Assembly: GCA_021323335.1 (NCBI GenBank)
Contig: JAJTCN010000006.1
Coordinates: 1 to 64,000 of the forward strand
Length of the DNA: 64,000 nt
DNA from: Ramlibacter sp.
GTDB taxonomy: Bacteria; Pseudomonadota; Gammaproteobacteria; Burkholderiales; Burkholderiaceae_C
Direction of reading: 5' to 3'
The translations under genes were made by a program, and so were the position numbers. Of the stretch, positions 4,170 to 45,167 are shown piece after piece (the stretch's first letter is position 1; every line of letters starts with the position of its first letter). The notes beneath the pieces were generated by a model, which ran no database searches, had not been told where the DNA came from, and was given only the letters and a program-made list of their open reading frames with translations.

Positions 4170-4199
4170 ATCACTTGAAGTTCCAGCGGCAAGTGGTTA

Positions 4200-4859
4200 T
4201 CACCACTTGCCTTTTGGATTGGCGCTGCGGATGGCACCGGCGATCAGGTCGGCGGCGTCCTGGCGGTTGGCGCGCAGGGCGAAGTCCACCGCCGACAGGC
4301 CCAGCTCGTTGCGCATCAAGGGATCCGCGCCTTCCTCCAGCAACAGCTTGACCGCCTCGGTCGATCCGTATTCGGCGGCCATCATGAGCGGCGTCGTCTT
4401 GTTCGGCGACTCCGCGTTGATGTAGGCGTGCTCCTGCAGCAGGATCTTCATCACGCCCAGATGGCCGCCCGTGGCCGCATAGTGCAGCGGCGTCCAGCCC
4501 GGCTTGTTGACGTCGGCGTCGCGCGCGATCAGCTTGCGCACCAGGTCCGTGTGGCCACGAAAGGCGGCCAGCATCAGCGGACTTTCGTCCTTCGGGCTGC
4601 GCCATTCGACCTTGGTCCTGGGCCAGTTCACCAGCGCCTCGGCCGCCTTCAGCGATCCTTCCTGCAACGCCGCGAACAGCCCGTGCCGGCCCGCCGGATC
4701 GAGGGTGTCGGGGTCGAAGCCGCGCAGCAGCAGCCCGGTGATGGTCTTCGGATCGTCCCGCTTGATGGCCACGAAGAAGTCCTCGTACGATCCCGCATGG
4801 GCGATGGAAAGTCCAATCAGGGTAAACAGATAGACGAGAGACTTAAGGTATTGCTTCAT
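4200..4859 (-). CDS. Exported ankyrin-repeat protein
   Basis: 219 residues. It has a Sec-type signal peptide (KQYLKSLVYLFTLIGLSIAHA, cleavage after AHA), then about four ankyrin repeats with clear signatures: SPLMLAAFRGHTDLVRKLIA, TPLHYAATGGHLGVMKILLQ, TPLMMAAEYGSTEAVKLLLE and LSAVDFALRANRQDAADLIA. It is probably a periplasmic protein-binding scaffold; the partner is unknown. Its ATG overlaps the tatD stop (ATGA at 4856-4859), making it the last gene of the mltG-tmk-holB-pilZ-tatD operon. Similar periplasmic ankyrin proteins sit after tatD in related betaproteobacteria, which I recall but cannot check here. Confidence 0.88.
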   Translation of the reverse strand: MKQYLKSLVYLFTLIGLSIAHAGSYEDFFVAIKRDDPKTITGLLLRGFDPDTLDPAGRHGLFAALQEGSLKAAEALVNWPRTKVEWRSPKDESPLMLAAFRGHTDLVRKLIARDADVNKPGWTPLHYAATGGHLGVMKILLQEHAYINAESPNKTTPLMMAAEYGSTEAVKLLLEEGADPLMRNELGLSAVDFALRANRQDAADLIAGAIRSANPKGKW

Positions 4860-5671
4860 GATTTCACGCCGCTGAACAGCGCCTCGAAATTGCGGCTGGT
4901 GAGCTCGCCCACCGCTTCCCTGGACAGTCCGCGAAGCTCCGCGACCTGGGCCGCCACGAAGGGCACATAGGAGGGATTGTTGACCTTTCCGCGGTACGGC
5001 ACGGGCGCCAGGTACGGGCTGTCGGTCTCGATCAGCAGCCGGTCGAGCGGGACGAAGCGGGCCACCTCGCGCAGGTCGGCCGCGCTCTTGAAGGTCAGGA
5101 TGCCGGAAAACGAAATGTAGAAGCCCAGGTCCAGGGCGGCCCGCGCCACCTCCATCGTTTCCGTGAAGCAATGGAACACGCCGCCGGCCGCGCCGGCGGA
5201 ACCGTCCTCGCCCTCTTCCTTCAGGATGGCCACCGTGTCCGCCGACGCATCGCGCGTATGGATGATCAGCGGCTTGCCGCACTGGCGGGCGGCCCGGATG
5301 TGGGTGCGAAAACGCTCGCGCTGCCACTCCATGTCGGCCACGCTGCGGCCGCCCTTGCGCTCTTCCATCTGGTAGTAGTCCAGCCCGGTCTCGCCGATCC
5401 CCACCACCCGGGGCCGCGCGGCCAGCTCCAGCAGCTTGTCGACCGTGGGCTCGGCGATACCCTCGTTGTCCGGGTGCACGCCGGCGGACGCCCAGAAGTT
5501 GTCGTGGGCCATCGCCAGCGCATGCACGTCCTCGAACTCCTCCAGCGTGGTGCAGATGCAAAGGGCGCGGTCGACGCCGGCGGCGGCCATGGCGGCGCGG
5601 ATCTGCGGCAGTTGCGCGGACAGTTCGGGAAAGCTGAGGTGGCAGTGGGAGTCGACGAACATGGTGCTCAA
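4856..5671 (-). CDS. tatD: TatD-family metal-dependent DNase
   Basis: 271 residues, a full-length TIM-barrel metal hydrolase of the TatD/YcfH family, whose members act as 3'-5' exonucleases on DNA. Metal ligands are visible: HxH at His9/His11 (DSHCHL), Glu in GETGLDYY, His in IIHTRDA, His in FHCFTE and Asp in ETDSPYLAP. It lies after pilZ (64-bp gap) and is translationally coupled to the ankyrin gene. This matches the holB-pilZ-tatD order seen in Pseudomonas. Confidence 0.95.
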   Translation of the reverse strand: MSTMFVDSHCHLSFPELSAQLPQIRAAMAAAGVDRALCICTTLEEFEDVHALAMAHDNFWASAGVHPDNEGIAEPTVDKLLELAARPRVVGIGETGLDYYQMEERKGGRSVADMEWQRERFRTHIRAARQCGKPLIIHTRDASADTVAILKEEGEDGSAGAAGGVFHCFTETMEVARAALDLGFYISFSGILTFKSAADLREVARFVPLDRLLIETDSPYLAPVPYRGKVNNPSYVPFVAAQVAELRGLSREAVGELTSRNFEALFSGVKS

Positions 5672-5735
5672 GGCAAAACGCCGCGCGGCGGGGAGCCGGC
5701 GGCGCTGCCTGGAAGATTGTAGGAGCCCGGGGGAC

Positions 5736-6095
5736 TCAGATCGTCTGGGTGGGCCGCTCGGAGGCCAGGTGGCCGCCGAGGATTTCCTCGATCTTCACCT
5801 TCAGGATCTTGGACTTGTCGTCCGCCGGAAACCGGACGCCGACGCCCTGGGTGCGGTTGGCGGCGGCGCGTGGCGGCGTGACCCAGGCCACCTTGCCGGC
5901 CACCGGATAGCGCTGCGGGTCGTCCGGCAGGGACAGCAGCACGTAGACGTCGTCGCCAAGCCGGTAGTCGCGCGTGGTGGGGATGAACACGCCGCCGTCC
6001 GAGAACAAGGGGATGTAGGCGGCGTACAGGGCGGCCTTTTCCTTGATGGCGAGCTGGATGACGCTCGGGCGCGGGGTGGAAGGAGCGGTGCTCAT
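5736..6095 (-). CDS. pilZ: Type IV pilus assembly protein PilZ
   Basis: 119 residues, a single PilZ domain. The c-di-GMP-binding RxxxR and D/NxSxxG motifs are not present; the corresponding loop reads FSDGGVFIPT, typical of the true PilZ of type IV pilus biogenesis, which does not bind c-di-GMP and works with the pilus machinery. The start ATG overlaps the holB stop (ATGA, 6092-6095). The gene order tmk-holB-pilZ-tatD is the classic one and supports the call. Confidence 0.92.
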   Translation of the reverse strand: MSTAPSTPRPSVIQLAIKEKAALYAAYIPLFSDGGVFIPTTRDYRLGDDVYVLLSLPDDPQRYPVAGKVAWVTPPRAAANRTQGVGVRFPADDKSKILKVKIEEILGGHLASERPTQTI

Positions 6096-7084
6096 GGCTG
6101 CCTTGAGTTTAGGGCCGTCCGCGCCTGGGCCACAAGGCTTTCCAGCTGCAGGCCGGGGTTGAACGGGTGTTCTACCGTTTTCGCGGCCTCCGAGAGGCTG
6201 CGCCACCACGCCGTCAGCGCCGGCACCGAGCCGGCGGCCGGCAGGTCCCCGGCCTCGAAGAAGCGCGGTGCCGCGCCCGAGTGCACGGCCAGCAGGTCGT
6301 GGCACAGTTTCTGGAGGGATTCGAGCAGCTGCGCCGGTCCCCACTGGCCGAATCCGGCAGTGTCGCCTCGGACCAACGCCTTGGGCCACTGCGACCAGGT
6401 GCGGGCGTCCAGCCCGGCCTGGTGCAGCCGCAGCGCGTCCTCCGGCCGGTCGCCGGCGGCGCGCAGCAGGACCGTCGCCGCCGCCCCGGGCACGCCCTCC
6501 TCCGCCAGCCAGGCCGTGGCCTCCTCCGCCCGCGGCCAGGCCATGGGATGCGCCAGGCAGCGGCTGCGGATGGTGGGCAGCAGCTGGTGCGCGGCCTCCG
6601 TCGCCAGCACGAAGCGCATGTCCCCGGGCGGCTCCTCCAGCGTCTTGAGCAGGGTGTTGGCGGTGACGTGGTTCATGCGCTCGGCGGGATACACGAGCAC
6701 CGCCTTGCCGCGGCCGCGGCCGCTGGTGCGCTGCGCGAACTCCAGCATGTCGCGCATGGCGTCCACCCGGATCTCCCGGCTCGGCTTGCGCTTCTTGTCG
6801 TCGATGTCGGCCTGCGCCTTCTCGCCCAGCGGCCAGCCGAGCTCCTGCATGGCCGTCTCGGGCATCAGCACGGTGAGGTCGGTATGGGCGCGCACCTCCA
6901 CCTGGTGGCAGCTGTCGCAGGCGCCGCAGGCGCCGTCGGCGGTGGGCCGGTCGCACAGCCAGGCCTGGACGAGCGCCAGTCCCATCTGGTACTGGCCCAG
7001 CCCCGACGGGCCGTGCAGCAGCCAGGCATGGCCGCGTTGCGCGAGCAGACCGCGCAGCTGGGCCCGGATCCAGGGCGCCGTCAT
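6092..7084 (-). CDS. holB: DNA polymerase III subunit delta'
   Basis: 330 residues, the clamp-loader subunit delta'. The N-terminal AAA+ fold has a degenerate P-loop (GPSGLGQYQ, no GKS/T), as expected for a subunit that does not hydrolyse ATP. A zinc module follows, with Cys44, Cys53, Cys56 and Cys59 (CGACDSC). The sensor/arginine-finger-like SRC motif (TIRSRCLAH) is present. The start ATG at 7084 overlaps the tmk stop and the stop overlaps the pilZ start, so the three genes are translationally coupled. Confidence 0.95.
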
Positions 7085-7725
7085 GGCAGGAAGCCCCGGG
7101 CCCGGACGCCGGCCAGCAGGTCGCGCCAGACCGCCTCGCGTGGCTGGTCGGCGGCGATGCGCAGGAACCGGCCGGGGTCGGCCTGCGCGCGGGCCGCATA
7201 ACCGGCGGCGACCCGCGCGAAGAAGGCCTGCGGCTGAGATTCGAACTTGTCGGGCACGCGCGCGCCGGCCAGCCGCTGCGCCGCGACGGCGGGGTCCAGG
7301 TCGAACCACGCGGTCAGGTGCGGCTGCCGCAGCGCGCCGGCGGGCAAGGCCTCGACGCCCTGCACCCATTGCTCCAGCGTCGCCAGCACCCGCGCATCGA
7401 AGCCGCGGCCGCCACCCTGGTAGGCGAAGGTGGCATCGGTGAAACGGTCGCACAGCACCACTTCGCCCCGCGCCAGCGCGGGCTCGATCACCTGCAGCAG
7501 GTGGTCGCGTCGCGCGGCGAACATCAGCAGCGCCTCGGTCAGCGGATCCATCGGGTCGTTCAGCGCCAGGGCGCGCAGCTTTTCCGCCAGCGGCGTGCCG
7601 CCCGGCTCGCGCGTCAGCACCACGGTGCGGCCGGCCGCGCGAAAGGCGGCGGCGAGTGCCTCGATGTGCGTGGACTTGCCGGCGCCGTCGATGCCTTCGA
7701 AGCTGAGGAAGAGGCCCTGGCTCAT
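7081..7725 (-). CDS. tmk: Thymidylate kinase (dTMP kinase)
   Basis: 214 residues. It phosphorylates dTMP to dTDP using ATP. The P-loop [11 protein letters not shown], the LTREPGG segment and the DRF substrate motif ([17 protein letters not shown]) are all present, followed by the LID region. Length is normal. ATGA overlaps with both mltG upstream and holB downstream show a tightly coupled operon. Confidence 0.96.
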
Positions 7726-8717
7726 TTCCCGCGCTGGAACTTGTTGACCGCGCGGTTGTGCTCGTCCAGCGTCTCGCTGAAATGGCTGGTGCCGTCGCCG
7801 CGGGCCACGAAGTAGATGGCCTTGCCCGGCGCCGGCTGCACCGCGGCCAGCAGCGAAGCCTTGCCCGGCATGGCGATCGGCGTGGGCGGCAGGCCCGGGC
7901 GCAGGTAGGTGTTGTAGGGGGAGTCGGTCTGCAGGTGCACCCGGCGCAGGTTGCCGTCGAAGCTCTCGCCCAGTCCGTAGATCACGGTGGGGTCGGTCTG
8001 CAGGGGCATGCCGATGCGCAGCCGGTTATGGAACACGCCGGCGATCATCGTTCGGTCCGACGGCTTGCCGGTTTCCTTCTCCACGATGCTCGCCAGCGTC
8101 AACGCCTCCTCCGGCGTCTTCAGGACGGACTGCGGGCTGCGCACCGCCCAGGCCTGTTCCAGCCGCCGGTCCATGGCGCGCAAGGCGCGCTGCAGCACCT
8201 TCACGTCGCTGGACCCCTTGGAGTAGGTGTAGGTATCGGGGAAGAAGCGGCCTTCCGGCGCGACGCCCGGGCGACCGAGCAGCGCCATGAGGTCGGCATC
8301 CGACAACCTGGCGGCGTCGGGCCGCAGCTGGTCGGCCTTGGCCAGCGCGGCACGCACCTGGCGCCAGTTCCAGCCTTCCACCAGCGTCACCGCCCGCAGG
8401 GATTCCTCGCCGCGGGAGAGCTTGTCCAGCAAACGCAAGGGCGTGATGCCGCGCTCCAGCTCGTAGTTGCCGGCCTTGATGCGCTGGCCTTCGCCCGAAA
8501 GGCGGAACCAGGCGTAGAGCAGCCGCGGGTCCACGTCGACGCCGGCGTCGCGCACGGACTGGGCCACCCTGCGCGGCAGCGTGCCGGGTTCGATGGACAG
8601 TTCCACGGCCGGCGCGCGCATGGGCAAGGGCTGGCGCAGCCAGTACCAGGCGGCGGCGAGGGCGCCCAGGGCGGCCAGCAGGGCCAGCACGAACAGTGTC
8701 GAAAAGAAGCGGCGCAC
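7722..8717 (-). CDS. mltG: Endolytic murein transglycosylase MltG
   Basis: 331 residues of the YceG/MltG family, which cleaves nascent glycan strands in the periplasm and terminates chain elongation. There is one N-terminal membrane segment (about residues 5-26, [20 protein letters not shown]), a LysM-like region and the catalytic domain. The conserved Glu lies in [10 protein letters not shown], with the FFPDTY and QTDPTVIYG motifs around it. It is the first gene of the minus-strand operon and is divergent from ygfZ (32-bp gap). Confidence 0.95.
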
Positions 8718-11912: not shown

Positions 11913-12782
11913 TCAGCGCGCCAGCGGCAAGGCGCTGGTCATGTCGACGTGGGGGATGCCGGCTTCCTCGTAGGGCTGGCCCCGCGCCACGAAGCCCAGG
12001 CGCTCGTAGAAGGCGCGCGCGGTGCGCTGGGCATGCAGTTCGATGGCCCGGTCACCGCGCCGCTGCGCCTCGGCCGCCAGCGCGCGCAACACCTGCTCGC
12101 CCAGCCCGCAGCCGCGCAGCACCTGGTGCACGGCCATCCGCCCGATCATGCAGACACCATCGGCAGCGGGCAGCAGCCGCCCGGTGGCGACCGGCTGGCC
12201 CAGGCGGTTGTAGGCCACCGCGTGCACGGCCGTGGCGTCGGCCTCGTCCCATTCCAGTTCGGCCGGGATGCGCTGCTCCTGCACGAAGACGGCGGTGCGG
12301 ATCCGACCCGCGTCGGCGCCGAGCTCGGACCAGGGGCCCGTCTTCACCCGCACCATCGGCTCGCCGGCCTCGAAGCCGGTGAGCATCTCCCGCAGCAGCG
12401 GCGGCACCGGCCTGGACGTCTGCGTGGCCGGATCGGCGAAGACGTAGACCAGCTCGCAGGTGATCAGCAGCTCTTCGCCGCGGAAGATGGCGCCGTGGAA
12501 GACCATCGAGGTATTGCCGATGCGGCTGCACTTCATGCCGACGTCCAGCGTGTCGTCCATCCGCGCGGAGGCGCTGAACTCCACGGTCGCCTTCTTCACG
12601 TAGATGTCGCCCTGCAACTGGTGCATGCCCTCTTCGTAGGGCATGCCGAGCGCGCGCCAGTAGTCGGCCACGGCCGTGTCGAAGTACATCAGGTAGTGGG
12701 CATTGAAGACGATCTTCTGCATGTCCACCTCGGCCCAGCGCACCCGGAGGCGGTGAAAGAAACGGAAGTCTTCTCTGGTCAT
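11913..12782 (-). CDS. Fused acyl-CoA thioesterase (YbgC/FcbC type) and ElaA-like GNAT acetyltransferase
   Basis: 289 residues in two domains. Residues 1 to about 138 are a 4-hydroxybenzoyl-CoA-thioesterase hot-dog fold with the catalytic Asp20 in VDMQKIVFNAHYLMYFD. Residues about 145-289 are a GNAT fold of the ElaA type, with VFVQEQRIP, the acetyl-CoA loop RMAVHQVLRGCGLGEQVL and the closing FYERLGF. One continuous frame spans both, so this is a real fusion. The ATG at 12782 overlaps the stop of the upstream hydrolase gene (ATGA). The hot-dog part hydrolyses acyl-CoA; the acceptor of the GNAT part is unknown. Confidence 0.88.
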   Translation of the reverse strand: MTREDFRFFHRLRVRWAEVDMQKIVFNAHYLMYFDTAVADYWRALGMPYEEGMHQLQGDIYVKKATVEFSASARMDDTLDVGMKCSRIGNTSMVFHGAIFRGEELLITCELVYVFADPATQTSRPVPPLLREMLTGFEAGEPMVRVKTGPWSELGADAGRIRTAVFVQEQRIPAELEWDEADATAVHAVAYNRLGQPVATGRLLPAADGVCMIGRMAVHQVLRGCGLGEQVLRALAAEAQRRGDRAIELHAQRTARAFYERLGFVARGQPYEEAGIPHVDMTSALPLAR

Positions 12783-13729
12783 GCTTGCAAAGCGCCTCGC
12801 AGGGCCGCCGCCGCGTCGGCGTGCGCCTGCCGGGCTTCCGGCAGCGCGCGGCCCATCTTGATGAATTCGTGGGTGACGCCGCGGTAGATTTCCAGCTCCA
12901 CCGCGACGCCGGCAGCGCGCAGTGTATCCGCGTAGGCGATGCCGTCGTCCACCAGCGGGTCGCACTCGGCCAGGCCGAACCAGGCGGGCGCCACCCCTTC
13001 GAGGTCGGGCGTGTTCAACGGGGCGAAACGCCAGTCGTCGCGCTCGGCGTCGTCGATGTACTGGCGAAAGAAGTACTCGATGTGGGCCTGCTCCAGCACC
13101 AGCCCCTGGTGGTAGCGGGCGTGCGACGGCGCCCGCGGCCAGCCCGCGCAGCCGGGATAGAACAGCAGTTGCAGGCGCAGCGGCAGGCGCGCATCGCGCG
13201 CGAGGGTGGCGCAGACCGTGGCCAGGGTGCCGCCGGCACTGTCGCCGCCGACGGCGAGCCGGCCCGCATCGAGTCCGAGCCCGGGTGCGTTGGCCGCCAG
13301 CCACTGCGTCGCGTCCCAGGCATCGTGCACCGCGGTCGGGAAGCGATGCCGGGGTGCGAGCCGGTAGCCGACGGAAACCACCGCGCAACCGGCCAGCTGC
13401 GCCAGCGTCCGGCACAGGATGTCGTGCGACGCGATGCTGCCGATGGTGAAGCCGCCGCCGTGGAAATACAGCAGCACCGGCAGGACGCCGGCGCCGGGCG
13501 CGTAGAGGCGCGCCGGGATGGTGGAGCCGTCGCGCACGGGAACCTGCAGGTCCTCCACGCGCGGCAAGGCCGGACGCGGGACCTCCAGCACGCCTGCCCC
13601 GAATTCATAGACCGCCTTCGCATGCTCCGGTTCGAGGTCGTACAGCGGCCGGTGGCCGGTGCGGGCCATGCGTTCCAGCACCGAGCGCATGGCGGGGGTG
13701 AGTTCGGGAAACTGCGGAAGAAATGTCAC
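12779..13729 (-). CDS. Alpha/beta hydrolase, hormone-sensitive-lipase (HSL) family
   Basis: 316 residues from a GTG start at 13729. It is a carboxylesterase of family IV: the oxyanion motif HGGGF begins at His90, the nucleophile elbow GDSAGG has Ser164, and the Asp (AECDPLVDD) and His (VTHEF) complete the triad. GTG 13729 was chosen because the only upstream ATG (13807) would overlap the divergent alcohol dehydrogenase start; AAGGA precedes it, though closely. An in-frame ATG at 13693 is the alternative. The 3' end overlaps the thioesterase-GNAT gene, so both are co-expressed. Confidence 0.88.
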   Translation of the reverse strand: MTFLPQFPELTPAMRSVLERMARTGHRPLYDLEPEHAKAVYEFGAGVLEVPRPALPRVEDLQVPVRDGSTIPARLYAPGAGVLPVLLYFHGGGFTIGSIASHDILCRTLAQLAGCAVVSVGYRLAPRHRFPTAVHDAWDATQWLAANAPGLGLDAGRLAVGGDSAGGTLATVCATLARDARLPLRLQLLFYPGCAGWPRAPSHARYHQGLVLEQAHIEYFFRQYIDDAERDDWRFAPLNTPDLEGVAPAWFGLAECDPLVDDGIAYADTLRAAGVAVELEIYRGVTHEFIKMGRALPEARQAHADAAAALRGALQA

Positions 13730-13796
13730 GGTCCTTGCAGCGCCGGCGGTGCCGGCTGGCTTACAGTGAGGCTCCCCATCGTAAGCGACCCGCGTC

Positions 13797-14933
13797 ATGA
13801 GCTTCATCTACTACGTCACCCAGATCCAGTTCGATTTCGGCGCCATCCAGCTTCTCAAGCAGGAATGCCAGCGCGTGGGCATCACCAAACCCCTGGTGGT
13901 GACCGACCAGGGCGTCAAGGCCGCCGGCGTGCTGCAGAAGGCGCTGGATGCGCTGGGCGGCCTGCCCCATGCGGTGTTCGACCAGACCCCGTCGAACCCG
14001 ACGGAGGCCGCGGTGCGGGCCGCCGTCGAGATCTACAAGGCCCAGGGTTGCGACGGCCTGGTCGCCGTGGGCGGCGGCTCCGCCATCGACTGCGCCAAGG
14101 GCGTGGCCATCGCGGCCACGCACGACGGCCCGCTCACGCGCTACGCCACCATCGAGGGCGGCTCGCCGCGCATCACCGACAAGGTGGCGCCCCTGATCGC
14201 CGTGCCCACCACCAGCGGGACCGGCAGCGAGGTCGCCCGCGGCGCGATCATCATCGTCGACGACCACCGCAAGCTCGGCTTCCACTCCTGGCACCTGGTG
14301 CCCAAGACGGCAATCTGTGATCCGGAGCTGACGCTGGGCCTGCCGCCCAAGCTGACGGCCGCCACCGGCATGGACGCGATCGCGCACTGCATGGAGACCT
14401 TCATGTCGTCCGCCTTCAACCCGCCGGCCGATGGGATCGCGCTCGACGGGCTGGAGCGCGGCTGGGCGAACATCGAACGGGCCACGCGCGACGGCAGCGA
14501 CCGCGAGGCCAGGTCCAACCTGATGAGCGCGTCGATGCAGGGTGCGATGGCGTTCCAGAAGGGCCTGGGCTGCGTGCATTCGCTCAGCCACAGCCTGGGC
14601 GGCGTCGATCCGCGGCTGCACCACGGCACGCTGAACGCGATGTTCCTGCCGGCGGTGGTGCGCTTCAACGCGCAGGCGCCATCGGTGCAGAAGGAGCGCC
14701 GGCTCGAGCGCATGGCGCATGCGATGGGCCTGAAGGCGGCAGGCGACATCCCCGACGCCATCCGGGACATGAATGCGCGCCTGGGCCTGGCGACCGGCCT
14801 GGCCGAACTGGGCGTGAACCGCGGCATGTTCGAGAAGATCATCGACGGCGCGATGGCCGACCATTGCCACAAGACCAATCCGCGCGAAGCGACGCGGGAA
14901 GACTACGAGGCGATGCTGCTGGCGTCGATGTGA
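13797..14933 (+). CDS. Iron-containing (group III) alcohol dehydrogenase
   Basis: 378 residues. It has the NAD(P)-binding GGGS loop (AVGGGSAIDCAKG), the PTTSGTGSE segment, and metal ligands in GMDAIAHCMET (Asp, His), CVHSLSHSLGG (His) and HHGTLNA (His). Members reduce or oxidise small alcohols, 4-hydroxybutyrate or maleylacetate; the sequence alone does not fix the substrate. It is divergently transcribed from the HSL hydrolase and convergent with the patatin-like gene, with a large palindrome in the convergent gap. Confidence 0.93.
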   Translation: MSFIYYVTQIQFDFGAIQLLKQECQRVGITKPLVVTDQGVKAAGVLQKALDALGGLPHAVFDQTPSNPTEAAVRAAVEIYKAQGCDGLVAVGGGSAIDCAKGVAIAATHDGPLTRYATIEGGSPRITDKVAPLIAVPTTSGTGSEVARGAIIIVDDHRKLGFHSWHLVPKTAICDPELTLGLPPKLTAATGMDAIAHCMETFMSSAFNPPADGIALDGLERGWANIERATRDGSDREARSNLMSASMQGAMAFQKGLGCVHSLSHSLGGVDPRLHHGTLNAMFLPAVVRFNAQAPSVQKERRLERMAHAMGLKAAGDIPDAIRDMNARLGLATGLAELGVNRGMFEKIIDGAMADHCHKTNPREATREDYEAMLLASM

Positions 14934-36667: not shown

Positions 36668-37615
36668 TCAACCTTCCCGCGTCCCGAGGAGGCCCTTCGG
36701 CCGGAAGATCAGGATCAGCACCAGGAACAGGTACGGCAGGATCGGCGCGATCTGCGAGATCTTCAGCTTCCACAGCGGGTAGCCGAAGGTCTGCGGCGTG
36801 ACCTGCAGGCCCACCGTCTGCGCGGCGCCCATCAGCGAGGCGTCGACGCCGACCGCGAAGGTCTGGATGATGCCGATGCCCAGCGAGGCCACGAAGGCGC
36901 CGGCCAGCGAACCCATGCCGCCGACCACCACCACCACGAAGATCACCGAGCCCACCGTCGCCGCCATGCCCGGCTCGGTGACGAAGGCGTTGCCGCCGAT
37001 GACGCCGGCCAGCCCGGCCAGCGCGGCGCCGCCGCCGAACACCAGCATGAACACGCGCGGCACGTTGTGGCCCAGGGACTCCACGGTGTCCGGGTGCGTC
37101 AGCGCCGCCTGGATGACCAGCCCGATGCGCGTGCGGGTGAGCAGCAGCCAGATCGCCACCAGCATGAGCAGGGCCACCAGCATCATGAAGCCGCGGTACA
37201 GCGGGAACTGGGTGCCGTACAGCGTGAACAGCGGACCGCCCAGGATGGCCGGCACGCGATAGTCCACCGAGCTGGTGCCCCACACCAGCTGCACCATCTC
37301 CAGGATGATGAAGGACAGGCCGAAGGTGATCAGCAGTTCCGGCACGTGGCCGAACTTGTGCACCCGGCGCAGCGCGTACTTCTCGAAGGCCGCGCCGGCC
37401 AGGCCGACCAGCAGCGGCGCCACGAACAGCGCCGGGAAGAAGCCGACCAGCTGGGTCGTGGCGTAGGCGAAATAGGCTCCCAGCATGTAGAAGCTGGCGT
37501 GGGCGAAATTGAGCACGCCCATCATGCTGAAGATCAGCGTGAGGCCGGACGAAAGCATGAACAGCAGCAGCCCGTAGCTGATGCCGTTCAGGAGCGATAT
37601 GGTGAAGAACTCCAT
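36668..37615 (-). CDS. livH: Branched-chain amino acid-type ABC transporter permease LivH
   Basis: 315 residues with about eight membrane segments. Family signature: GISYGLLLFMLSSGLTLIFS near the N-terminus, then NFAHASFYMLGAY. It forms the channel with LivM. It is the first gene after the livK terminator, so expression would depend on read-through or an own promoter in the 108-bp gap. Confidence 0.92.
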   Translation of the reverse strand: MEFFTISLLNGISYGLLLFMLSSGLTLIFSMMGVLNFAHASFYMLGAYFAYATTQLVGFFPALFVAPLLVGLAGAAFEKYALRRVHKFGHVPELLITFGLSFIILEMVQLVWGTSSVDYRVPAILGGPLFTLYGTQFPLYRGFMMLVALLMLVAIWLLLTRTRIGLVIQAALTHPDTVESLGHNVPRVFMLVFGGGAALAGLAGVIGGNAFVTEPGMAATVGSVIFVVVVVGGMGSLAGAFVASLGIGIIQTFAVGVDASLMGAAQTVGLQVTPQTFGYPLWKLKISQIAPILPYLFLVLILIFRPKGLLGTREG

Positions 37616-37674: not shown

Positions 37675-37704
37675 AAAAAAAAGCCGGGACGCTGGCGTCC
37701 CGGC
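37675..37704 (-). terminator. Rho-independent terminator after livK
   Basis: Read on the minus strand: GCCGGGACGC, a two-base tip, GCGTCCCGGC (37704-37683), followed at once by eight T (37682-37675). It is the clearest intrinsic terminator in the window. It separates livK from livHMGF and is likely a partial terminator that gives more binding protein than permease. Confidence 0.88.
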
Positions 37705-37723: not shown

Positions 37724-38953
37724 TCAGCCCGGACGCTTCATCTGGCAGCTGGTGGGCGTGCTGGACACGTACGGGTCCATCTGCTTGATCGGCACGAAGG
37801 TGTAGCCGGTGTTCTCCACGCTGTACTCGCCGGGCTTGGCCTTCTGCCACTTGGTGATGTACATCGATTGCTGCAGCTGGTGGTCGGAGGCGCGCATGGT
37901 GACGTCGCCGCCGAAGCTCTTGACCGACAGTCCTTCCATCGCCTTGGCCACGGCCACCGGGTTGGTGGACTTGGCCTTGGCCATGGCCGCGGACAGCAGC
38001 TGGATGCCGTTGTAGGTGGCGAAGGTGTAGTAGTCGTCGTTGAACTTCTTCTTGAACTCCGCGCCCATCTGGCCGATCTCGCCGGTGTGGTTGGAGTGGC
38101 CATAGGCCACCACGTACACCTCGCTGTCGCCGCCGCCGGCCAGCGCCGTCGGCGTGCCGGTCACGCCGGCGTAGTAGGTGTACATCGGGATCTTCAGGCC
38201 GGCGTCGTTCATGGCCTTGACCAGCAGGGTCAGGTCCTGGCCCCAGTTGCCGGTGAGCACGGTGTCGGCGCCCGACTGCTTGATCTTGGCGACGTAGGGC
38301 GCGAAGTCCTTGACCTGGCCGATCGGGTGCAGGTCCTCGCCGGCGATCTTGACGTCCGGCCGCTTGCGGGCGATGGCGTCCTTGAAGTACTTGGCGACCT
38401 GCTGGCCGTGCGAGTAGTTCTGGTTCAGGAGGTAGACGCTCTTGACCTTGGGCTGGTCCTTCATGAAGGAGGTCAGCGCCTCCATCTTCATGGAGGTGTC
38501 GGCGTCCAGGCGGAAGTGCCAGAAGTCGCACTTCTCGTTGGTCAGGGCCGGGTCCACCGCCGCGTAGTTCAGGTAGACGATCTCCTTGCCCGGATTGCGC
38601 TCGTTGTGCTTGGACACCGCGTCGAGGATGGCCGTGGCAGCGCCGGAGCCGTTGCCCTGCGTGATGTAGCGGAAGCCCTGGTCGACGGCGGCCTTGACCG
38701 TGTTCAGGCTTTCCTGCGGAGAGCCCTTGTTGTCGAAGCCGACCACCTCGAACTTGACGCCCGCGGGGTTCTTGCCGGACAGCTTCTCGGCGGCGAACTG
38801 CCAGCTCTTGAGCTGGTTCTGGCCGACGTTGGCGAACGGGCCCGACAGCGGGTCCATGAAGGCGATGCGGACGGTCTCGCCCTTCTGGGCGTGGGCGGCG
38901 CCCCCCGCGGCCACCATGGCCGCGACGGCGACGATCTTGAGCGAATTCTTCAT
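37724..38953 (-). CDS. livK: Branched-chain amino acid-type ABC transporter substrate-binding protein
   Basis: 409 residues. The Sec signal peptide (MKNSLKIVAVAAMVAAGGAAHAQ) is followed by a periplasmic binding protein type I fold with FMDPLSGPFANVGQNQ and GFDNKGSPQESLN. The ATG at 38953 has AGGAGA at ideal distance; an ATG eight codons upstream has no such site. Two Cys (KCDFWHFR; TSCQMKRPG). Family members bind amino acids, amides or aromatic and short-chain carboxylates, so with the neighbouring acyl-CoA ligase the ligand may be a carboxylic acid. Confidence 0.93.
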   Translation of the reverse strand: MKNSLKIVAVAAMVAAGGAAHAQKGETVRIAFMDPLSGPFANVGQNQLKSWQFAAEKLSGKNPAGVKFEVVGFDNKGSPQESLNTVKAAVDQGFRYITQGNGSGAATAILDAVSKHNERNPGKEIVYLNYAAVDPALTNEKCDFWHFRLDADTSMKMEALTSFMKDQPKVKSVYLLNQNYSHGQQVAKYFKDAIARKRPDVKIAGEDLHPIGQVKDFAPYVAKIKQSGADTVLTGNWGQDLTLLVKAMNDAGLKIPMYTYYAGVTGTPTALAGGGDSEVYVVAYGHSNHTGEIGQMGAEFKKKFNDDYYTFATYNGIQLLSAAMAKAKSTNPVAVAKAMEGLSVKSFGGDVTMRASDHQLQQSMYITKWQKAKPGEYSVENTGYTFVPIKQMDPYVSSTPTSCQMKRPG

Positions 38954-39079: not shown

Positions 39080-40723
39080 TCAAGCCGTCGGCAGCTTGTA
39101 ATCCTTCAACTGCTCGCGCAGCCGGGTCTTCAGCATCTTGCCGGTGGCGCCCAGCGGAATCGCCTCCACGAAGACCACGTCGTCGGGGATCTGCCACTTG
39201 GCGGTCTTGCCCTCGTAGAAGCGCAGCAGTTCCTCGCGCGTGACGTCCATGCCCGGGCGCTTGACGATCGCCACGATCGGCCGCTCGTCCCATTTCGGAT
39301 GCCGCATGCCGACGCAGGCGGCCATCTGCACGGCCGGATGCGCCATCGCGATGTTCTCGATGTCGATGGAGCTGATCCACTCCCCGCCGGACTTGATGAC
39401 GTCCTTGCTGCGGTCGGTGATCTGCATGTAGCCGTCGGCGTCCATGGTCGCCACGTCGCCCGTCGGGAACCAGCCGGCGCCGTGCGCGTCCTTCACCAGC
39501 GGGTCGCCGCCCTCGCCCTTGAAGTATTCGCGCACCACCCACGGCCCCCTCACGTACAGGTCGCCGTAGGTCTTGCCGTCCCAGGGCAGTTCCTTGCCGT
39601 CCTCGCCGACGATCTTCAGGTCCACGCCGAAGATGGCCCGCCCCTGCTTGAGGCGGATCTTCATCTGTTCCTCGGCCGGCAGCGCGAGGTGCTTGTTCTT
39701 CAGGGTGCACAGCGTGCCCAGCGGGCTCATCTCGGTCATGCCCCAGGCGTGCAGCACCTCCACGCCGTAGTCCTCGCGGAAAGAGTGGATCATGGCCGGC
39801 GGGCAGGCCGAGCCGCCGATCACCGTGCGCTTGAGGGTGGAAAAGCGCAGTCCCGCCGGCTTCATGTGGCCCAGCAGCATCTGCCAGACCGTCGGCACGC
39901 CGGCGGCGTAGGTCACCTTCTCGGCCTCGATCAGCTCGTACACCGACTTGCCGTCCATGGCCGGGCCGGGGAACACCAGCTTGCAGCCGGTCAGCGCGGC
40001 GGAGTACGGGATGCCCCAGGCGTTGACGTGGAACATCGGCACCACCGGCAGCACCGCGTCGCGCGCGGACAGGCACATCACGTCCGGCAGCGCCGCGGCG
40101 TAGGCATGCAGCGTGGTGGAGCGGTGGCTGTAGAGCGCGGCCTTCGGGTTCCCCGTGGTGCCGCTGGTGTAGCACATGCTCGAGGCGGAGTTCTCGTCGA
40201 AGCTGGGCCACTGGTACGTGGGGGGCTGGCCGCCGATCCACGACTCGTAGGCCACGAGGTTGGGGATGCCGCTGTCCGCGGGCAGCTTGTCGGGCTCGCA
40301 CAGCGCCACGTACTGCCGGATGGTCGGGCACTTCGCGTGCACCGCCTGCACCAGCGGCAGGAAGGTCAGGTCGAAGCAGAGCACCTGGTCCTCGGCATGG
40401 TTGGCGATCCAGGCGATCTGTTCCGGGTGCAGCCGGGGATTGATGGTGTGCAGGACCCGCCCGGAGCCGCTGACGCCGAAGTACAGCTCGAGGTGGCGGT
40501 AGCCGTTCCAGGCCAGCGTGGCGACGCGGTCGGAGAACAGCAGCTGCATGCCGTCGAGGGCGTGGGCCACCTGGCGCGAGCGGCGCGCCACATCCTTCCA
40601 CTGGTAGCGGTGGATGTCCCCTTCGACGCGCCGCGAGACGATCTCGGTGTCGCCGTGGTGGCGCTCGGCGTGCTCGATCAGCGCCGAGATCATCAGGGGT
40701 TGGCTTTGCATCAGGCCCAGCAT
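39080..40723 (-). CDS. Acyl-CoA ligase (AMP-binding, medium/long-chain fatty acid type)
   Basis: 547 residues. It activates a carboxylic acid to its CoA thioester through an acyl-adenylate. P-loop [16 protein letters not shown], the A5 motif [12 protein letters not shown], the A7/A8 region [36 protein letters not shown] (first part 20 residues from GWF) and the C-terminal Lys in GATGKMLK are all present. GAGGAG lies eight bases before ATG 40723 (starting MLGLMQSQP); ATG 40729 is closer than usual to it. The closest types are medium-chain and 3-methylmercaptopropionyl-CoA ligases. It is upstream of livK, so substrate uptake and activation may be linked. Confidence 0.92.
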
Positions 40724-40778
40724 GCGCATGTCTCCTCGTTTCGAAAGATGCGCAATGCTAAACCCGCCGACCCCCTTG

Positions 40779-41951
40779 CTAGCGCTCGTCCCCCAGGGCC
40801 TCGAAGAACAGGGTCACGGACGTGCCTTCGCCGACCACCGACTGCACGTCGATGGAGCCGCTGATGGCCTGCATCACCCGCTGGCAGAACATCAGGCCCA
40901 TCCCGCTGCCGCCGGTGGCGGCGCGGGTGGTCACCGGCTCGCGCGTCAGCTTGGCCAGCACCTCGGGGGGGATGCCGGGCCCGTTGTCCCGCACCCGGAT
41001 CCAGGCCCGCCGGCCCCGGGGCGCCTGCGGCGCGCTGCCCACCTCCAGCACCAGCCGCGGCGGCCTTTCCTGCCCGCGCATGGCGAGCAGCGCGTTCTTG
41101 GTGAGCGTGCACAACACCAGGTACAGCAGGTCGCGGCGGCCGGGCAGCGCGAAGTCCTGCCGCACGTCCGGCGCAACGCAGGCGCGCTCGCTGGCCTCGA
41201 AGGGGAATTCGTCCAGCAGCGCCTCCACCAGGCTGCTGGCGCGGATGGACTGCGGCTGGGCATCCGGATAGGCGTCGCGGGCTGACTGCACGAAGGTGGA
41301 GACCAGCGACTGGCAATACAGGGCGCGGCGCTCCGCCCGTTCGAGCGCGCCCAGCAGCTCCCCGGGGTACTCTTCGGTGAACCGGGCGATGCCGGGCGGC
41401 GAATCGGGCCCGGGCGCGATGTGGCGGCCGGCCACCGAACCGACATAACCGCGCACCGTCGCCAGCGGCGTGTTGAGTTCGTGCGCCAGGAAGCCGAGCG
41501 CCTCGCGCAGGGCCGCCACCCGCCCTTCGTTCACCGCGCGCTCCAGTGCCTGCGTGCGATACAGCGCCAGCGCTTCCCGCAGGGCCTCGCGCGTCAGGTC
41601 GCCGTCGAGCGGCTTTTCCAGGATGCGCAGCACCTTGCCCTGGTTGACGGCGGCGATCGCCACGTCCTTCTCGGCGTAGGCGGTGGCCAGCAGGCGGATC
41701 ACGTGCCGGTAGTCCTGGTGCACGGCGCGCAGCAGCTTCATGCCGTCGCGCTCCGGCATGCGGTAGTCGGTGACCAGCACGCCGAACTCGTGGCTGCGCG
41801 CGCGCAGGATGTCCAGCGCCTCGTCGGCGCCGCCCGCGGTGGCCACCTTGAACTCGTCCCCGAACTCCAGCGCGAACCACTTGCGCGACATGGGTTCGTC
41901 GTCCACGAACAGCACGGACGGCGAATCGGCGGAGAGGTCGGGAGCCAGCAT
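40779..41951 (-). CDS. Hybrid sensor kinase with N-terminal receiver (REC-HisKA-HATPase)
   Basis: 390 residues, cytoplasmic, without membrane segments. The receiver domain (about 12-125) has the acidic pair Asp17/Asp18 and phospho-acceptor Asp62 (LVTDYRMPE), with Lys113 in LEKP. The HisKA domain has His157 in FLAHELNTPL. The ATPase domain has KNALLAM, RDNGPGIPPE and GGSGMGLMFCQ. A receiver in front of a kinase suggests it takes phosphate from an upstream relay, here from the HPt of the kinase encoded 11 bp upstream. It has no DNA-binding output, so its own target is elsewhere. Confidence 0.9.
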   Translation of the reverse strand: MLAPDLSADSPSVLFVDDEPMSRKWFALEFGDEFKVATAGGADEALDILRARSHEFGVLVTDYRMPERDGMKLLRAVHQDYRHVIRLLATAYAEKDVAIAAVNQGKVLRILEKPLDGDLTREALREALALYRTQALERAVNEGRVAALREALGFLAHELNTPLATVRGYVGSVAGRHIAPGPDSPPGIARFTEEYPGELLGALERAERRALYCQSLVSTFVQSARDAYPDAQPQSIRASSLVEALLDEFPFEASERACVAPDVRQDFALPGRRDLLYLVLCTLTKNALLAMRGQERPPRLVLEVGSAPQAPRGRRAWIRVRDNGPGIPPEVLAKLTREPVTTRAATGGSGMGLMFCQRVMQAISGSIDVQSVVGEGTSVTLFFEALGDER

Positions 41952-41962
41952 GTGCGCTTGGT

Positions 41963-44461
41963 TCAGGCGGTGCGGGAGTCGGCGGAGCAGTATGCCTTCA
42001 GCGCCTCTTCGGTGCGGGTCGCCGTGCCCTGCAGCTGGGCCAGCCAGTCGGCGCTTTCGGGCCAGCGGCCCTCTTCCAGCAGCGGCACGTAGATGCGGCG
42101 CACCTGCTGGTAGAGCACCTGCGCGCCGGCTTCGCCACTCATGCCCAGCAGCGAGTGCAGCGCGTCCATGCTCGCGTCGCGGTCGCTTGCCCGGGCGGCA
42201 GCCTGCAGTTCGCCGACCAGCCGGGCCATCTCGGGCAGGTAGTCGTTCAGCAGTTCCTCCACCATCCCGAGGCGGCGGTAGCTTTCCAGCCGCTGCAGGT
42301 TCAGCAGCTCGTCGCCGCTGGGCTGCGGCGGTGCGGCCAGCGCCGGCTCCGCGACGGTGCGCGCGCCGTAGCCGCCCGCCACCAGGCGGGACAGCGTGTC
42401 GTACAGCAGCGGCGCGTCCACCGGCTTGACCAGGAAGCCGTTCATGCCGGCCGCGGTGGCCGCGGCCACCGCGGGTTCGTCGGAGCGCGCGGTCAGCGCC
42501 ACCACCGGCACCCCGGCCCAGCGTTCGCCGGACGACCGGATGGCGCGCGCCGTTTCCAGGCCGTCCATGCCCGGCATGTGGAGGTCGACGATCACGGCGT
42601 GGATGCCGTCCTGCGCATGCAGCTGCTCCAGCACCGCGCGCCCGTGCTCCACCTCGATCACGATGGCTGCGGCGTTGCGCAGGTAGGCGGCGATCGCCTT
42701 GCGGTTGAAGGCGCTGTCGTCGGCCAGCAGGATGCGCCGGCCGGCCAGCCGGCCCTGGGCATCGCGCCCGCCGACCGGCACCTGCAGCGAATGCTGCAGG
42801 GCGGCCAGCAGCGGCAGCTGCGCACAGGGCTTGCTGACGAAGCCGTCCATGCCGCCGCGCAGCGCCTTGCTGCGCGCCAGGTGCGCGGGCTCGCTGGTGT
42901 AGGCGACGATGCGGACGTTCTGGTTCATCCCCGGGTCGCGGCGGATCTTCTCGGCCACCGCGTAGCCGTCCAGGCCGGGCATGTGCAGGTCCAGCAGCAC
43001 GATGTCGTAGGGCTTGCGCGCCAGCTGCGCCAGCGCCAGCTGGCCGTCCGCCGCTTCGTCGAGCTCGGACGTCAGGGCCAGCGGGCCGAGTTTCTGGCGG
43101 GTGGCGTGCCGCTGCACCGGGTCGTCCTCGACGATCAGGATGCGCTTGCCGGCCAGCACGGTGCGGGCCTGCGCGACCGCGGCCAGCCGGTGCTGCTCGC
43201 GCTCCTCCTCGCTGATGGCGGGGAAGCGCATGGTGAATTCGGTGAAGCTGCCGGGCACCGATTCGCAGGCGATCCCGCCGTCGAACGCGCGCATCACGCG
43301 CTGGCAGTAGGCCAGGCCGAGCCCGGTGCCGCCGGACTTGCCGACGGAGCGGAACGGCTCGAACAGCCCCGCCAGCGCGTCGGGGGCGATGCCCGGGCCG
43401 TTGTCGCGCACCTTCACCTGGTGGTCGCCGACCGTGATGGTCACCCGCGTGTGCGGATACGGCTTCACGTAGTACAGGGCGTTCTTCACCAGGTTGAACA
43501 GCACGAACAGGTAGGCCGTCTCGTCGCCCTTGAAGGTGAAGTCCTCCGAGATCTCGACGCTGACCTTGTCGCGCTCCTCGTCGCTGTCGTAGCTGTATTC
43601 CTCCACCGCCTGCTGCACCACCTCGGCGGCGGAAAGATACCGGAACGCGGACGAGTCGATCGGCCGCGCGCTCACCTCGTCGAGCGTCATCGAGATGACC
43701 TGCAGCCCGCGCTGCACCGCCTGCTCGCCGCGCGCCAGGTGGTGGTAGAGCGCCTGCACCTGCTGCGCGTCCAGCTTGGCGGCGTTGCGGTTGGCCCCGG
43801 GCGCCGGCAGCACTTCCTGCATGCCCTCCAGGCTGTGCTTCAACTGCGCCAGCGGATGGCGCATCTCGTGGGCGATGGAGCCCGCCAGCGCCTGCGTCGC
43901 CCGCAGCTTGCGCTCGGCGTCGATCTTGTCGGTGTTGGACTTGAACAGGTTGCCGCCGATCACCACCAGGGCGAAGGCGGGCAGCTGCGCCACCAGGTCC
44001 ATCGGCACCCGCGGGTTGCCGTTGGTGGCCACGTAGATCAGCGCCGCCAGGCCGGTGCCGGCCGACAGCATCACCAGCGTGTTGCGCCAGTCGGTCAGCA
44101 GCACCAGGAAACACAGGATGATGAAGGCGTTCGAGATCGACGCCACGCCGCCGCCGCGCTGCAAGGCGATCAGCACCGTGAAACAGGGCAGGCAGTACAG
44201 CAGCGCGGCGTACGAATAGCGGATGTAGTACGGCTTCAGCCGCTCGGGCCAGTAGTCCCGCATCCCCATCAGCACGAACAGCAGCACCGCCAGCGCGCGC
44301 GCCGGCATGTCGTCGAACAGCACCGGGTTCGGCCGCGTGAAGCGCAGGAAATAGAACGCCACGTAGGTGATGGCCCCCACGTAGCCCATCGTCCGCAGCC
44401 GCGACGGGCCGTAGGCGTGGTAGTCCTCGAAGTACTGGAACAGCCTGCGGAGAACGTTCAT
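41963..44461 (-). CDS. CqsS/LqsS-like six-TM hybrid histidine kinase (HisKA-HATPase-REC-REC-HPt)
   Basis: 832 residues. Six hydrophobic segments (about 25-41, 56-67, 82-100, 109-124, 127-145, 155-173) form an N-terminal sensor. The HisKA has His198 in IAHEMRHP, the N box Asn327 in FNLVKNALYY, G boxes DNGPGIAP and GGTGLGLAYCQ. Two receivers follow (Asp491, Asp626, both in DLHMPG) and an HPt (His769 in DALHSLLG). From memory of Vibrio CqsS, the alpha-hydroxyketone autoinducer receptor, this sensor matches in layout and in local sequence (RRxxQYxE start; FCLPxF-like YCLPCF; IAHEMRxPLxxLK; FNLxKNAxYY; VRDNGxGIAP). The extra REC and HPt would merge roles that Vibrio splits between CqsS and LuxU. 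No cqsA-like synthase lies nearby; instead the coupled upstream gene encodes a LuxI/FeeM-like acyltransferase. Confidence 0.88.
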   Translation of the reverse strand: MNVLRRLFQYFEDYHAYGPSRLRTMGYVGAITYVAFYFLRFTRPNPVLFDDMPARALAVLLFVLMGMRDYWPERLKPYYIRYSYAALLYCLPCFTVLIALQRGGGVASISNAFIILCFLVLLTDWRNTLVMLSAGTGLAALIYVATNGNPRVPMDLVAQLPAFALVVIGGNLFKSNTDKIDAERKLRATQALAGSIAHEMRHPLAQLKHSLEGMQEVLPAPGANRNAAKLDAQQVQALYHHLARGEQAVQRGLQVISMTLDEVSARPIDSSAFRYLSAAEVVQQAVEEYSYDSDEERDKVSVEISEDFTFKGDETAYLFVLFNLVKNALYYVKPYPHTRVTITVGDHQVKVRDNGPGIAPDALAGLFEPFRSVGKSGGTGLGLAYCQRVMRAFDGGIACESVPGSFTEFTMRFPAISEEEREQHRLAAVAQARTVLAGKRILIVEDDPVQRHATRQKLGPLALTSELDEAADGQLALAQLARKPYDIVLLDLHMPGLDGYAVAEKIRRDPGMNQNVRIVAYTSEPAHLARSKALRGGMDGFVSKPCAQLPLLAALQHSLQVPVGGRDAQGRLAGRRILLADDSAFNRKAIAAYLRNAAAIVIEVEHGRAVLEQLHAQDGIHAVIVDLHMPGMDGLETARAIRSSGERWAGVPVVALTARSDEPAVAAATAAGMNGFLVKPVDAPLLYDTLSRLVAGGYGARTVAEPALAAPPQPSGDELLNLQRLESYRRLGMVEELLNDYLPEMARLVGELQAAARASDRDASMDALHSLLGMSGEAGAQVLYQQVRRIYVPLLEEGRWPESADWLAQLQGTATRTEEALKAYCSADSRTA

Positions 44462-45167
44462 GCCATGGCCTCTTCTTCGGAAAGCTCGCGCAGCGCGAGG
44501 ATGTTTTCGGCCAGACGCCGCTCCTCCGGCGTGCCGGCCAGCGCGCGCAGCACGTCGGGCACGGTGCCGTGGATCAGGGAGTAGGTCTCACCCTCTTCCT
44601 GGCTCGCGTCCTTGACCACCACGTTGAAGCCGAAGCGGCGGTACAGCCGGCTCAGCAGGGGCGTGCAGGAGGCGAACAGGTTTTCCACGTCGGTGTTCTC
44701 GATCAGGTGCACCAGGGTCAGGAACAGGCACCGCTTGAGGGAGTCGGGGCCGCTGCGGTAGCGCGGCGCCAGCACGAGGCGCCCCACTTCCCAGCTGCCG
44801 TGGCGCATTTCGGGGTCGATGCCGTGGCGCGCAACCAGCTTCTCGCACGGCGCCAGCCCATGGTCCATGGGCAGCAGGCGGATGGTGCCTATGTATTCGC
44901 CGAATCGCAGGAAGGCCCCCACGAGACCGATCTCGTCTCTTTTTTTTCGCGGGTCGCGAATCCCGTGTCCGCCAGGGCGGACGCGGGCAGCTGGATTTCC
45001 TGCCGGAGGTGGACGATGCGGGAGATTTCGGCGGCACTGCGCAAGTGCCGGAAATTGACCTCGTGCGGCTGCACGTCGTTGGAGACGGGCGGGGGCTCGT
45101 CGACCAGATTGGCAAAACCCGCGGGCATGAGCCCGAACGACCGCTCCAGCGCAGAAAAATCGCTCAT
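44458..45167 (-). pseudogene. LuxI/FeeM-like N-acyltransferase gene, interrupted by a frameshift at an A8 tract
   Basis: Two reading frames together encode one GNAT-fold acyltransferase. The first frame starts at ATG 45167 (strong site GGGAGGG four bases upstream), reads through HLRQEIQLPASALADTGFA, and ends at 44889 (92 codons). The second continues from the A8 tract as GAFLRFGEYIGTIRLLP, then SWEVGRLVLAPRYR and LLSRLYRRFGFNVVV, to a stop overlapping the kinase start (ATGA). Joining them needs one extra A, or a -1 ribosomal shift, near codon 74, and gives 236 residues. E-x-x-R-L ahead of a basic loop and the final Y-x-R-F-G-F are typical of the acyltransferases related to LuxI, FeeM and the PEP-CTERM-associated family. 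A -10-like CATAAT lies at 45219-45214. It may be a true pseudogene, a slippage-decoded gene, or a sequencing error. Confidence 0.8.
44940..44947 (-). other. Eight-A homopolymer at the frameshift point
   Basis: On the minus strand this is GAA AAA AAA GAG in the upstream frame, so the heptamer A_AAA_AAA is in slippery phase. Shifting back one base continues as AGA GAC GAG ATC into the downstream frame. Runs of this length are rare in the high-GC surroundings. Confidence 0.85.

Follow-up and report, generated by a model that had tools for sequence, protein, structure and literature searches.

A candidate signalling locus of Burkholderiales pairing a frame-split LuxI/FeeM-like synthase with a CqsS-family sensor kinase

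We analysed a 64,000-nucleotide stretch of DNA (the window) from Ramlibacter sp. (assembly GCA_021323335.1, contig JAJTCN010000006.1, positions 1 to 64,000), which carries a predicted signalling locus on its minus strand. Genes for an acyltransferase (the putative synthase), a hybrid sensor kinase, a fusion of receiver domain and histidine kinase (REC-HK) and an acyl-CoA ligase follow one another there, and a branched-chain-type transporter operon lies beyond them. An earlier reading made from the letters alone, hereafter the sequence-only reading, had proposed that the first three genes form a new signalling system. Its coordinates were reproduced, with the kinase at 41963-44461 (832 amino acids) and the REC-HK at 40779-41951, as were the ATGA shared by the TGA of the acyltransferase and the ATG of the kinase and the gap of 11 bp between kinase and REC-HK. 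By contrast, its description of the acyltransferase as one intact gene did not hold, as the 710 nucleotides from 45167 to 44458 are divided between two reading frames, the most striking feature of the locus and one that this reading had missed.

The frame that opens with the ATG comprises 92 codons and, read without a shift, reaches a stop at 44889-44891, 16 codons past a run of eight A's (A8). The N-terminal part of the synthase (44940-45167, minus strand) extends over 76 codons from the ATG at 45167 through Glu-Lys-Lys at this run. The putative slip site (44940-44948, minus strand) consists of a G, the A8 run itself (44940-44947) and then GAGA. The C-terminal part (44458-44940, minus strand) takes the -1 frame, counted from that of the ATG, and is entered at the run; it is the LuxI/FeeM-like portion of the gene, similar to Pfam FeeM, and contains the conserved motifs GTIR..P, WE.GRL and RLYRRFGF. 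Elsewhere in the window, a single A8/T8 run occurs, at 37675-37682, and it falls between the transporter genes 36668-37615 and 37724-38953.

We scanned 84,980 species genomes with patterns based on a six-row alignment of the synthase C-terminal part, whereupon at least 80 stretches matched two peptide patterns; among the matches listed, at least 38 were synthase loci, hosted by Ramlibacter, Caenimonas, Polaromonas, Hydrogenophaga, Paraburkholderia, Burkholderia sp. H160 and other Burkholderiales. The query rows came from split genes, and since the C-terminal parts alone were used, the scan did not select for frame. The gene was split at the same place and in the same register in 35 of these 38 relatives, with homologous segments in the N-terminal frame. 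Culturable strains with the split gene include Ramlibacter pallidus HM2, R. paludis XY19 and R. cellulosilyticus USB13. Considering 43 distinct loci, namely the 38 relatives, the window and four further loci (L018, L021, L022 and L023), we observed the -1 split in 38, across several genera, the run being A8 in 37 of them and A9 in one (L058), which retains the -1 register. The sequence G-A8-GAGA(C/T) is present at 36 of the 43; L058, with its ninth A, and L073, which reads GGGAT, deviate from it and still have the -1 register. The other five loci are in frame: L069, L071, L022 and L023 lack a long A run, and L054 has one. Several neighbouring genes are broken in the assemblies of both L053 (Ramlibacter terrae) and L054 (R. 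montanisoli), and the frames of both are untrustworthy for that reason.

These counts bear on two rival accounts of the split. The window synthase could be a pseudogene, or its frame break a sequencing error, so that the kinase pair alone would function. The gene is indeed not one open reading frame, homopolymers are prone to sequencing error, and the window assembly (G000) is 90% complete in 165 contigs. Yet the same -1 register recurs at A8 or A9 in 38 of the 43 loci, which stem from many separate assemblies, and L054 is the sole doubtful locus among those in frame. Alternatively, the run could be a contingency switch, with the synthase toggled by changes in the length of the run in the DNA: homopolymers in coding regions are a classic substrate of phase variation, and in-frame forms do occur in nature. 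Such a switch predicts mixed registers, whereas the run is eight long in 37 of the 38 split loci, the A9 locus is still in -1, and four of the in-frame loci have no long run that could vary, L054 being the one that has. We regard phase variation as very improbable.

The composition of the two halves speaks further to whether the gene is decayed. Alignments of 36 split rows (the window and 35 of L039-L076) were used for the counts that follow, and the rows are related to one another, so that counts of codons and runs are not independent events. Mean information by codon position was 0.70/0.66/0.47 bits in the N-terminal frame before the run and 1.03/1.29/0.51 bits in the C-terminal frame after it, the third position being the most variable on both sides. 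Among eight close rows, compared without gaps, the fraction of differing positions was 0.31/0.19/0.45 in the N-terminal half and 0.21/0.17/0.45 in the C-terminal half. These codon-position patterns show that each half has been selected as protein. Eight A's stand at the run in all 36 aligned rows, while runs of A8/T8 or longer are otherwise scarce (7 in 563,423 bases of the 38 loci). In these loci, as read by a simple gene caller, 9.8% of the codons for Lys are AAA and 0.4% of those for Arg are AGA; judged by these counts, the A8 run is maintained in spite of codon bias. The Leu codon preceding GAA at the run is CTC in 11 of 11 cases, against a background of 21% of Leu codons. In 27 of the 36 rows, the C-terminal frame has no start codon between its last stop and the run. 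With protein-like patterns in both halves and long A runs rare elsewhere, we give the pseudogene or error account hardly any credence.

Because the same -1 split recurs across genera and both halves are selected as protein, the conserved split points to programmed frameshifting or transcriptional slippage, rather than to a pseudogene. On a tree of the partner kinases, the in-frame state, found in four loci among 39 rows once L054 is omitted, corresponds to three changes. On the midpoint-rooted tree, the first rows to branch within the FeeM-linked group, L068 followed by those of Paraburkholderia and Burkholderia sp. H160, have the split gene, an observation suggestive of an old origin of the split. 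Downstream RNA structure is unnecessary for slippage on A runs; that none was found here, as detailed below, would favour transcriptional slippage. The window genome has tRNA-Lys genes with both anticodons, TTT and CTT (30 of 38 tRNA places scanned), and the strict use of AAA over AAG in the presence of both would suit ribosomal slippage too. For scale, an excerpt of PMC3711429 on magnesium chelatase genes gives 10, 40 and 63% frameshifting for cassettes with A7, A9 and A11, respectively.

The sequence-only reading had assigned the acyltransferase to the GNAT-fold LuxI/FeeM type, and this assignment was supported. The C-terminal part of the window synthase resembled Pfam FeeM with E=4.8e-6, at a score just short of the curated cut-off, and the N-terminal piece alone matched no Pfam or NCBIfam family. 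A profile of the synthase family compared with solved structures gave one significant match, the acyl-homoserine lactone (AHL) synthase TofI (E=2.5e-4), the other six structures listed having E >= 0.25. An AlphaFold2 model of the in-frame Hydrogenophaga homologue L071 has a GNAT fold (predicted local distance difference test score, pLDDT, 87.2), in which the first strand and the first long helix come from the stretch corresponding to the N-terminal half and the junction is inside a helix, at residues 57-69. Foldseek with this model matched many GNAT proteins, including LasI (1ro5), RpaI (6wn0), TofI (3p2h) and FeeM (2g0b) at a TM-score (TMq) of 0.50-0.60. The R..P and E..R positions are invariant in the family, and we take them to be those of LuxI-type enzymes. 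Collectively, a LuxI/FeeM-like acyltransferase at the margin of the curated family is supported. The acyltransferase family associated with PEP-CTERM/exosortase (TIGR03694) was considered and rejected, the C-terminal part scoring 14 bits against a cut-off of 111.95 and L071 giving no match. A PF00765 search of the window genome gave no match; control genomes likewise gave none, and the search is hence uninformative.

The gene adjoining the synthase encodes a hybrid kinase of the layout CqsS-type sensor-HisKA/HATPase-REC-REC-HPt. Pfam found two receiver domains, HATPase and HPt in it, and HisKA weakly, below its own cut-off. For the putative membrane sensor, residues 1-190 (43892-44461, minus strand), no dedicated family was found in Pfam or NCBIfam. 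It is strongly hydrophobic over residues ~47-173, which fits several membrane segments, putatively six by the sequence-only reading. The best NCBIfam match of the whole kinase was the LuxN model, at 248.8 bits against a cut-off of 1550. The proposed kinship with CqsS was recovered by profile comparison: hhalign of 18 FeeM-linked against 7 CqsA-linked sensors gave a probability of 99.9 and E=3.1e-32 over 180 columns. The window kinase is also 31% identical over residues 1-416 to a Vibrio campbellii kinase adjoining a CqsA match, in a record that carries no annotation at that place. By these comparisons, the sensor is a member of the CqsS family.

A quick tree of 66 kinases (midpoint root, support by Shimodaira-Hasegawa-like approximate likelihood-ratio test, SH-aLRT) placed the closest relatives of the window kinase in Ramlibacter. 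It also placed the FeeM-linked kinases apart from the CqsA-linked ones, in a group of 42 rows made up of 41 FeeM-linked kinases and one on a long branch (L147). Duplicates and truncated copies (L024, L026, L030 and L027) were omitted from the tree and from the residue counts, for which L028 never qualified; kinases whose best match was too short or lay on another kinase (L034, L053, L062, L075, L146 and L153) were left out, and L029 was assigned to the FeeM-linked set from a fragmentary synthase match. The 25 remaining kinases, termed CqsA-linked or other, comprise 21 with CqsA in the fetched stretch and four without (L036, L135, L136 and L147). The two sets differ at three sensor positions. 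At one of them, 24 of the 25 CqsA-linked or other sensors have a Trp, as against 0 of 41 FeeM-linked ones. A Ser present in 22 of the 25 is likewise found in 0 of 41, being replaced by Asn in 36 and Asp in 5. A Trp in the first segment, found in 22 of the 23 CqsA-linked or other sensors with a letter there, also occurs in 0 of 41 (Arg in 35, Tyr in 5, Asn in 1). The Trp/Ser pair presumably corresponds to the ligand-contacting residues of V. cholerae CqsS. An excerpt of PMC3285556 states that the chain-length preference of CqsS is set by a single residue in the last membrane segment.

The sequence-only reading had noted the absence of a CqsA-like enzyme. This is true at the locus, and no CqsA match was found in any of the 38 stretches carrying synthase relatives; the same genome, on the other hand, has on its contig C75 a CqsA above the NCBIfam cut-off, near which a receiver protein and a CqsS-like kinase are encoded. 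In this second locus (L107, G000:C75:20000-28904), CqsA lies at 6472-7722 on the minus strand, and the kinase (3692-5458) and receiver protein (5486-6463) on the plus strand. The organism thus seems to have both a FeeM-linked and a CqsA/CqsS system. One could suppose that the window kinase senses the alpha-hydroxyketone of this separate CqsA, with the acyltransferase a mere neighbour, as the enzyme scores above its cut-off and the sensors are homologous. However, that CqsA has its own CqsS-like kinase nearby, none of the 41 FeeM-linked sensors has either the Trp or the Ser that is conserved in CqsA-linked ones, and the kinase accompanies the synthase in every one of the 38 relatives; we consider this explanation very improbable.

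The linkage itself was checked in those 38 relatives. The sensor kinase lay downstream of the synthase on the same strand in all of them, directly in 32 and with one extra gene between in 6, which is linkage beyond chance; in L049, L050, L062 and L075 the contig ends inside the kinase, and in L053 the assembly breaks it. Among 200 genomes of the family, the synthase was found in 8, the window genome included, and the sensor in 11, with all 8 within the 11. When profiles were run on 399 genomes of the order, that of the synthase matched one, the window genome, with at most 10 candidates scored per genome, which is too few to show absence elsewhere, and that of the sensor matched 17, with part of the candidates scored. 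Conserved linkage, profile matches and the tree thus lend good support to the pairing of a LuxI/FeeM-type synthase with a CqsS-type receptor, the central proposal of the sequence-only reading. Two of the outcomes that this reading had named as refuting it, a synthase unlinked to the kinases elsewhere and a sensor outside the CqsS family, did not occur.

A second kind of synthase-kinase pair, divergent, in frame and without an A8 run, was observed in L025 (G134:C5:70000-84800, 12664-14801) and L033 (3773-6267). It adjoins genes that, named by eye, are of the fatty-acid oxidation type. Genome G134 holds both kinds of pair, and they flank its transporter and ligase genes.

The residues named earlier for a phosphorelay sit at the claimed positions and are conserved wherever a row has a residue: His198, Asp491, Asp626 and His769 of the kinase in 40, 34, 36 and 33 of 41 aligned kinases, respectively, the remainder being gaps, and Asp62 of the REC-HK in 26 of 26 aligned rows. 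The REC-HK matched Pfam Response_reg and HATPase_c above the cut-off and HisKA slightly below it, and it stands beside the kinase in 23 of the 38 relatives (at least 150 bits), while L065 closes with an incomplete copy. These conserved residues are in keeping with a His-Asp-His-Asp relay. The relay would vary among lineages, since some kinases end short of 800 residues (L057, L064, L068 and L033; L053 is broken).

Other genes accompany the pair in part of the relatives, and some fetched stretches are too short to judge neighbours. A haem-oxygenase-like diiron enzyme was found in 10 of the 38, its gene preceding the synthase in 4 and separating synthase from kinase in the other 6; that of L031 matched Pfam Haem_oxygenas_2 (E=3.8e-20). 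The motifs E-x-x-H and D-x-x-H are kept in 12 haem-oxygenase-like enzymes, one of them from a Pseudomonas plasmid, and the nearest solved structure to these enzymes is 3dde, of haem-oxygenase-like fold (E=1.6e-38). On a P. coronafaciens plasmid (L154, NZ_CP046442.1 32894-38304), a distant synthase-like acetyltransferase adjoins a haem-oxygenase-like enzyme of 48% identity, and genes for anthranilate synthase, a CoA ligase, a flavodoxin and an EamA transporter are its neighbours.

The acyl-CoA ligase of the window (39080-40729, minus strand) scored 1025.8 bits with NCBIfam NF005426, whose cut-off is 822, and is thereby typed as a 3-(methylthio)propionyl-CoA ligase. We treat it as a context gene whose part in the signalling system is uncertain. 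A ligase of this kind invites the explanation that the locus serves metabolic control, the enzyme making an N-acyl lipid or a catabolic intermediate tied to the ligase and the branched-chain transporter, and the kinase sensing a metabolite or the state of the membrane. An acyl-CoA ligase lies within the fetched stretch in 22 of the 38 relatives, and FeeM enzymes make N-acyl amino acids, which are not established as signals. Against this, the ligase lies outside the fetched stretch in 16 of 38 (some stretches being short), as opposed to a kinase in 38 of 38, and a synthase adjoining its receptor is the layout of CqsA/CqsS, the receptor family from which the sensor comes. Metabolic control is accordingly unlikely in our judgement, without being far-fetched.

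On the preferred reading, the locus encodes a signalling core of two genes, to which others may be added, namely a frameshifted LuxI/FeeM-type synthase and a CqsS-family receptor feeding a relay, and we consider this probable. The GNAT N-acyltransferase would make a fatty-acyl amide or amino-acid signal. In most relatives, full-length synthase would require the ribosome or RNA polymerase to slip to -1 at the A8 run, so that the N-terminal part is fused to the catalytic C-terminal one, and this shift may limit or condition synthase output. The kinase, altered at positions that are near-invariant in its CqsA-linked relatives, would detect the signal of the synthase, and phosphate would pass from His198 to a receiver Asp, to His769 of the HPt domain and on to Asp62 of the REC-HK. 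In some lineages, the haem-oxygenase-like diiron oxidase probably tailors the signal.

Several observations weigh against this reading. The product, the ligand, the frameshift product and the phosphorelay are all things that we infer from sequence. As to the synthase, the C-terminal part of the window copy scored 26.9 bits against Pfam FeeM, just below the cut-off of 27; the in-frame L071 protein alone gave no FeeM match, and Foldseek placed generic GNAT proteins level with or above LasI and FeeM. As to the frameshift, five of 43 loci are in frame, and it is therefore not obligatory for the whole synthase family; the window is among the nine of 36 rows with possible start codons of the C-terminal frame upstream of the run. 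The RNA past the slip site gave no structure signal (mean z of -0.11 over +14..+63 and of -0.52 over +14..+93, compared with -0.07 for a control stretch and -0.85 upstream), so that there is no sign of the stimulator that -1 shifting by ribosomes usually has. As to linkage and distribution, the system is rare in a shallow search of 399 genomes of the order, and the REC-HK is missing from several relatives. Distant synthase-like proteins occur on 24 plasmid records (23 Pseudomonas, 1 Agarilytica), and no kinase is annotated in the one 5.4-kb plasmid stretch inspected, that of P. coronafaciens. Finally, L147 lies within the FeeM-linked kinase clade with no synthase detected in its stretch, although its position on the tree may be wrong because it has the CqsA-type Trp. 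The L147 kinase (G449:C5:524000-538000, ~6385-7587, minus strand) adjoins a protein at 7670-8374 on the same strand, and neither CqsA nor a FeeM-like synthase was matched there.

In summary, we slightly favour the broader view that this is a new class of quorum sensing in Burkholderiales, whose signal would be neither an AHL nor an alpha-hydroxyketone. It would be made by a LuxI/FeeM-type synthase, with diiron oxidation in some lineages, and perceived by a CqsS-derived receptor with a swapped ligand, its output being set by -1 frameshifting at the A8 run. If this is true, a receptor family can switch signal class along with its synthase, and with the changed positions visible, co-evolution of receptor and ligand becomes testable. 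Programmed frameshifting would then lie inside a signal-making enzyme, where fidelity of translation or transcription could couple signalling to the state of the cell; to our knowledge, this would be the first recoded autoinducer synthase. The reading also predicts that environmental bacteria amenable to culture, of soil and water, make a new natural product. Split synthases may be labelled as pseudogenes by annotation pipelines, which could explain why the system has been overlooked.

Among the papers listed from open-licence literature, covered by titles and the openings of abstracts, none was found on a FeeM-CqsS pairing or a recoded autoinducer synthase. Signalling through membrane kinases, LuxI/FeeM synthases and recoding at A runs are each known, and their combination looks to be undescribed in that literature. 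The frameshift genes of the GeneTack clusters and of dnaX type resemble the synthase in having an A run of the A_AAA_AAA heptamer type and the -1 register (PMC3711429, in part); in the main text of that paper, the terms acyltransferase, autoinducer, homoserine and quorum led to no such synthase family. The PhcB/PhcS/PhcR system of Ralstonia, as outlined in an excerpt of PMC11960443, has a fatty-acid-derived signal, a sensor kinase and response regulators that lack a DNA-binding site; PhcB is a methyltransferase, unlike the GNAT synthase of the window, and the likeness is one of description alone. LqsA/LqsS of Legionella is a close system, again by description, as sequences were compared for CqsA/CqsS only, and lqsA/lqsS-like clusters occur in other proteobacteria according to an excerpt of PMC3376566.

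The LuxI AHL synthases and FeeM N-acyl amino acid synthases share with the present enzyme the GNAT fold and the R..P and E..R positions, but its partner is a membrane histidine kinase instead of a LuxR regulator, and its gene is split by a -1 shift. LuxM/LuxN of Vibrio likewise has an acyl-type synthase adjoining a membrane hybrid kinase, whereas the sensor in the window is of CqsS type and the synthase LuxI/FeeM-like, set apart from LuxM by description. CqsA/CqsS of Vibrio resembles the window locus in that a homologous membrane sensor kinase adjoins the synthase gene. It differs in that CqsA is a pyridoxal phosphate-dependent enzyme, whereas the window synthase is a GNAT acyltransferase with a frame-split gene, and the window kinase ends in REC-REC-HPt, carries changes at the sensor Trp and Ser and has a REC-HK as its partner.

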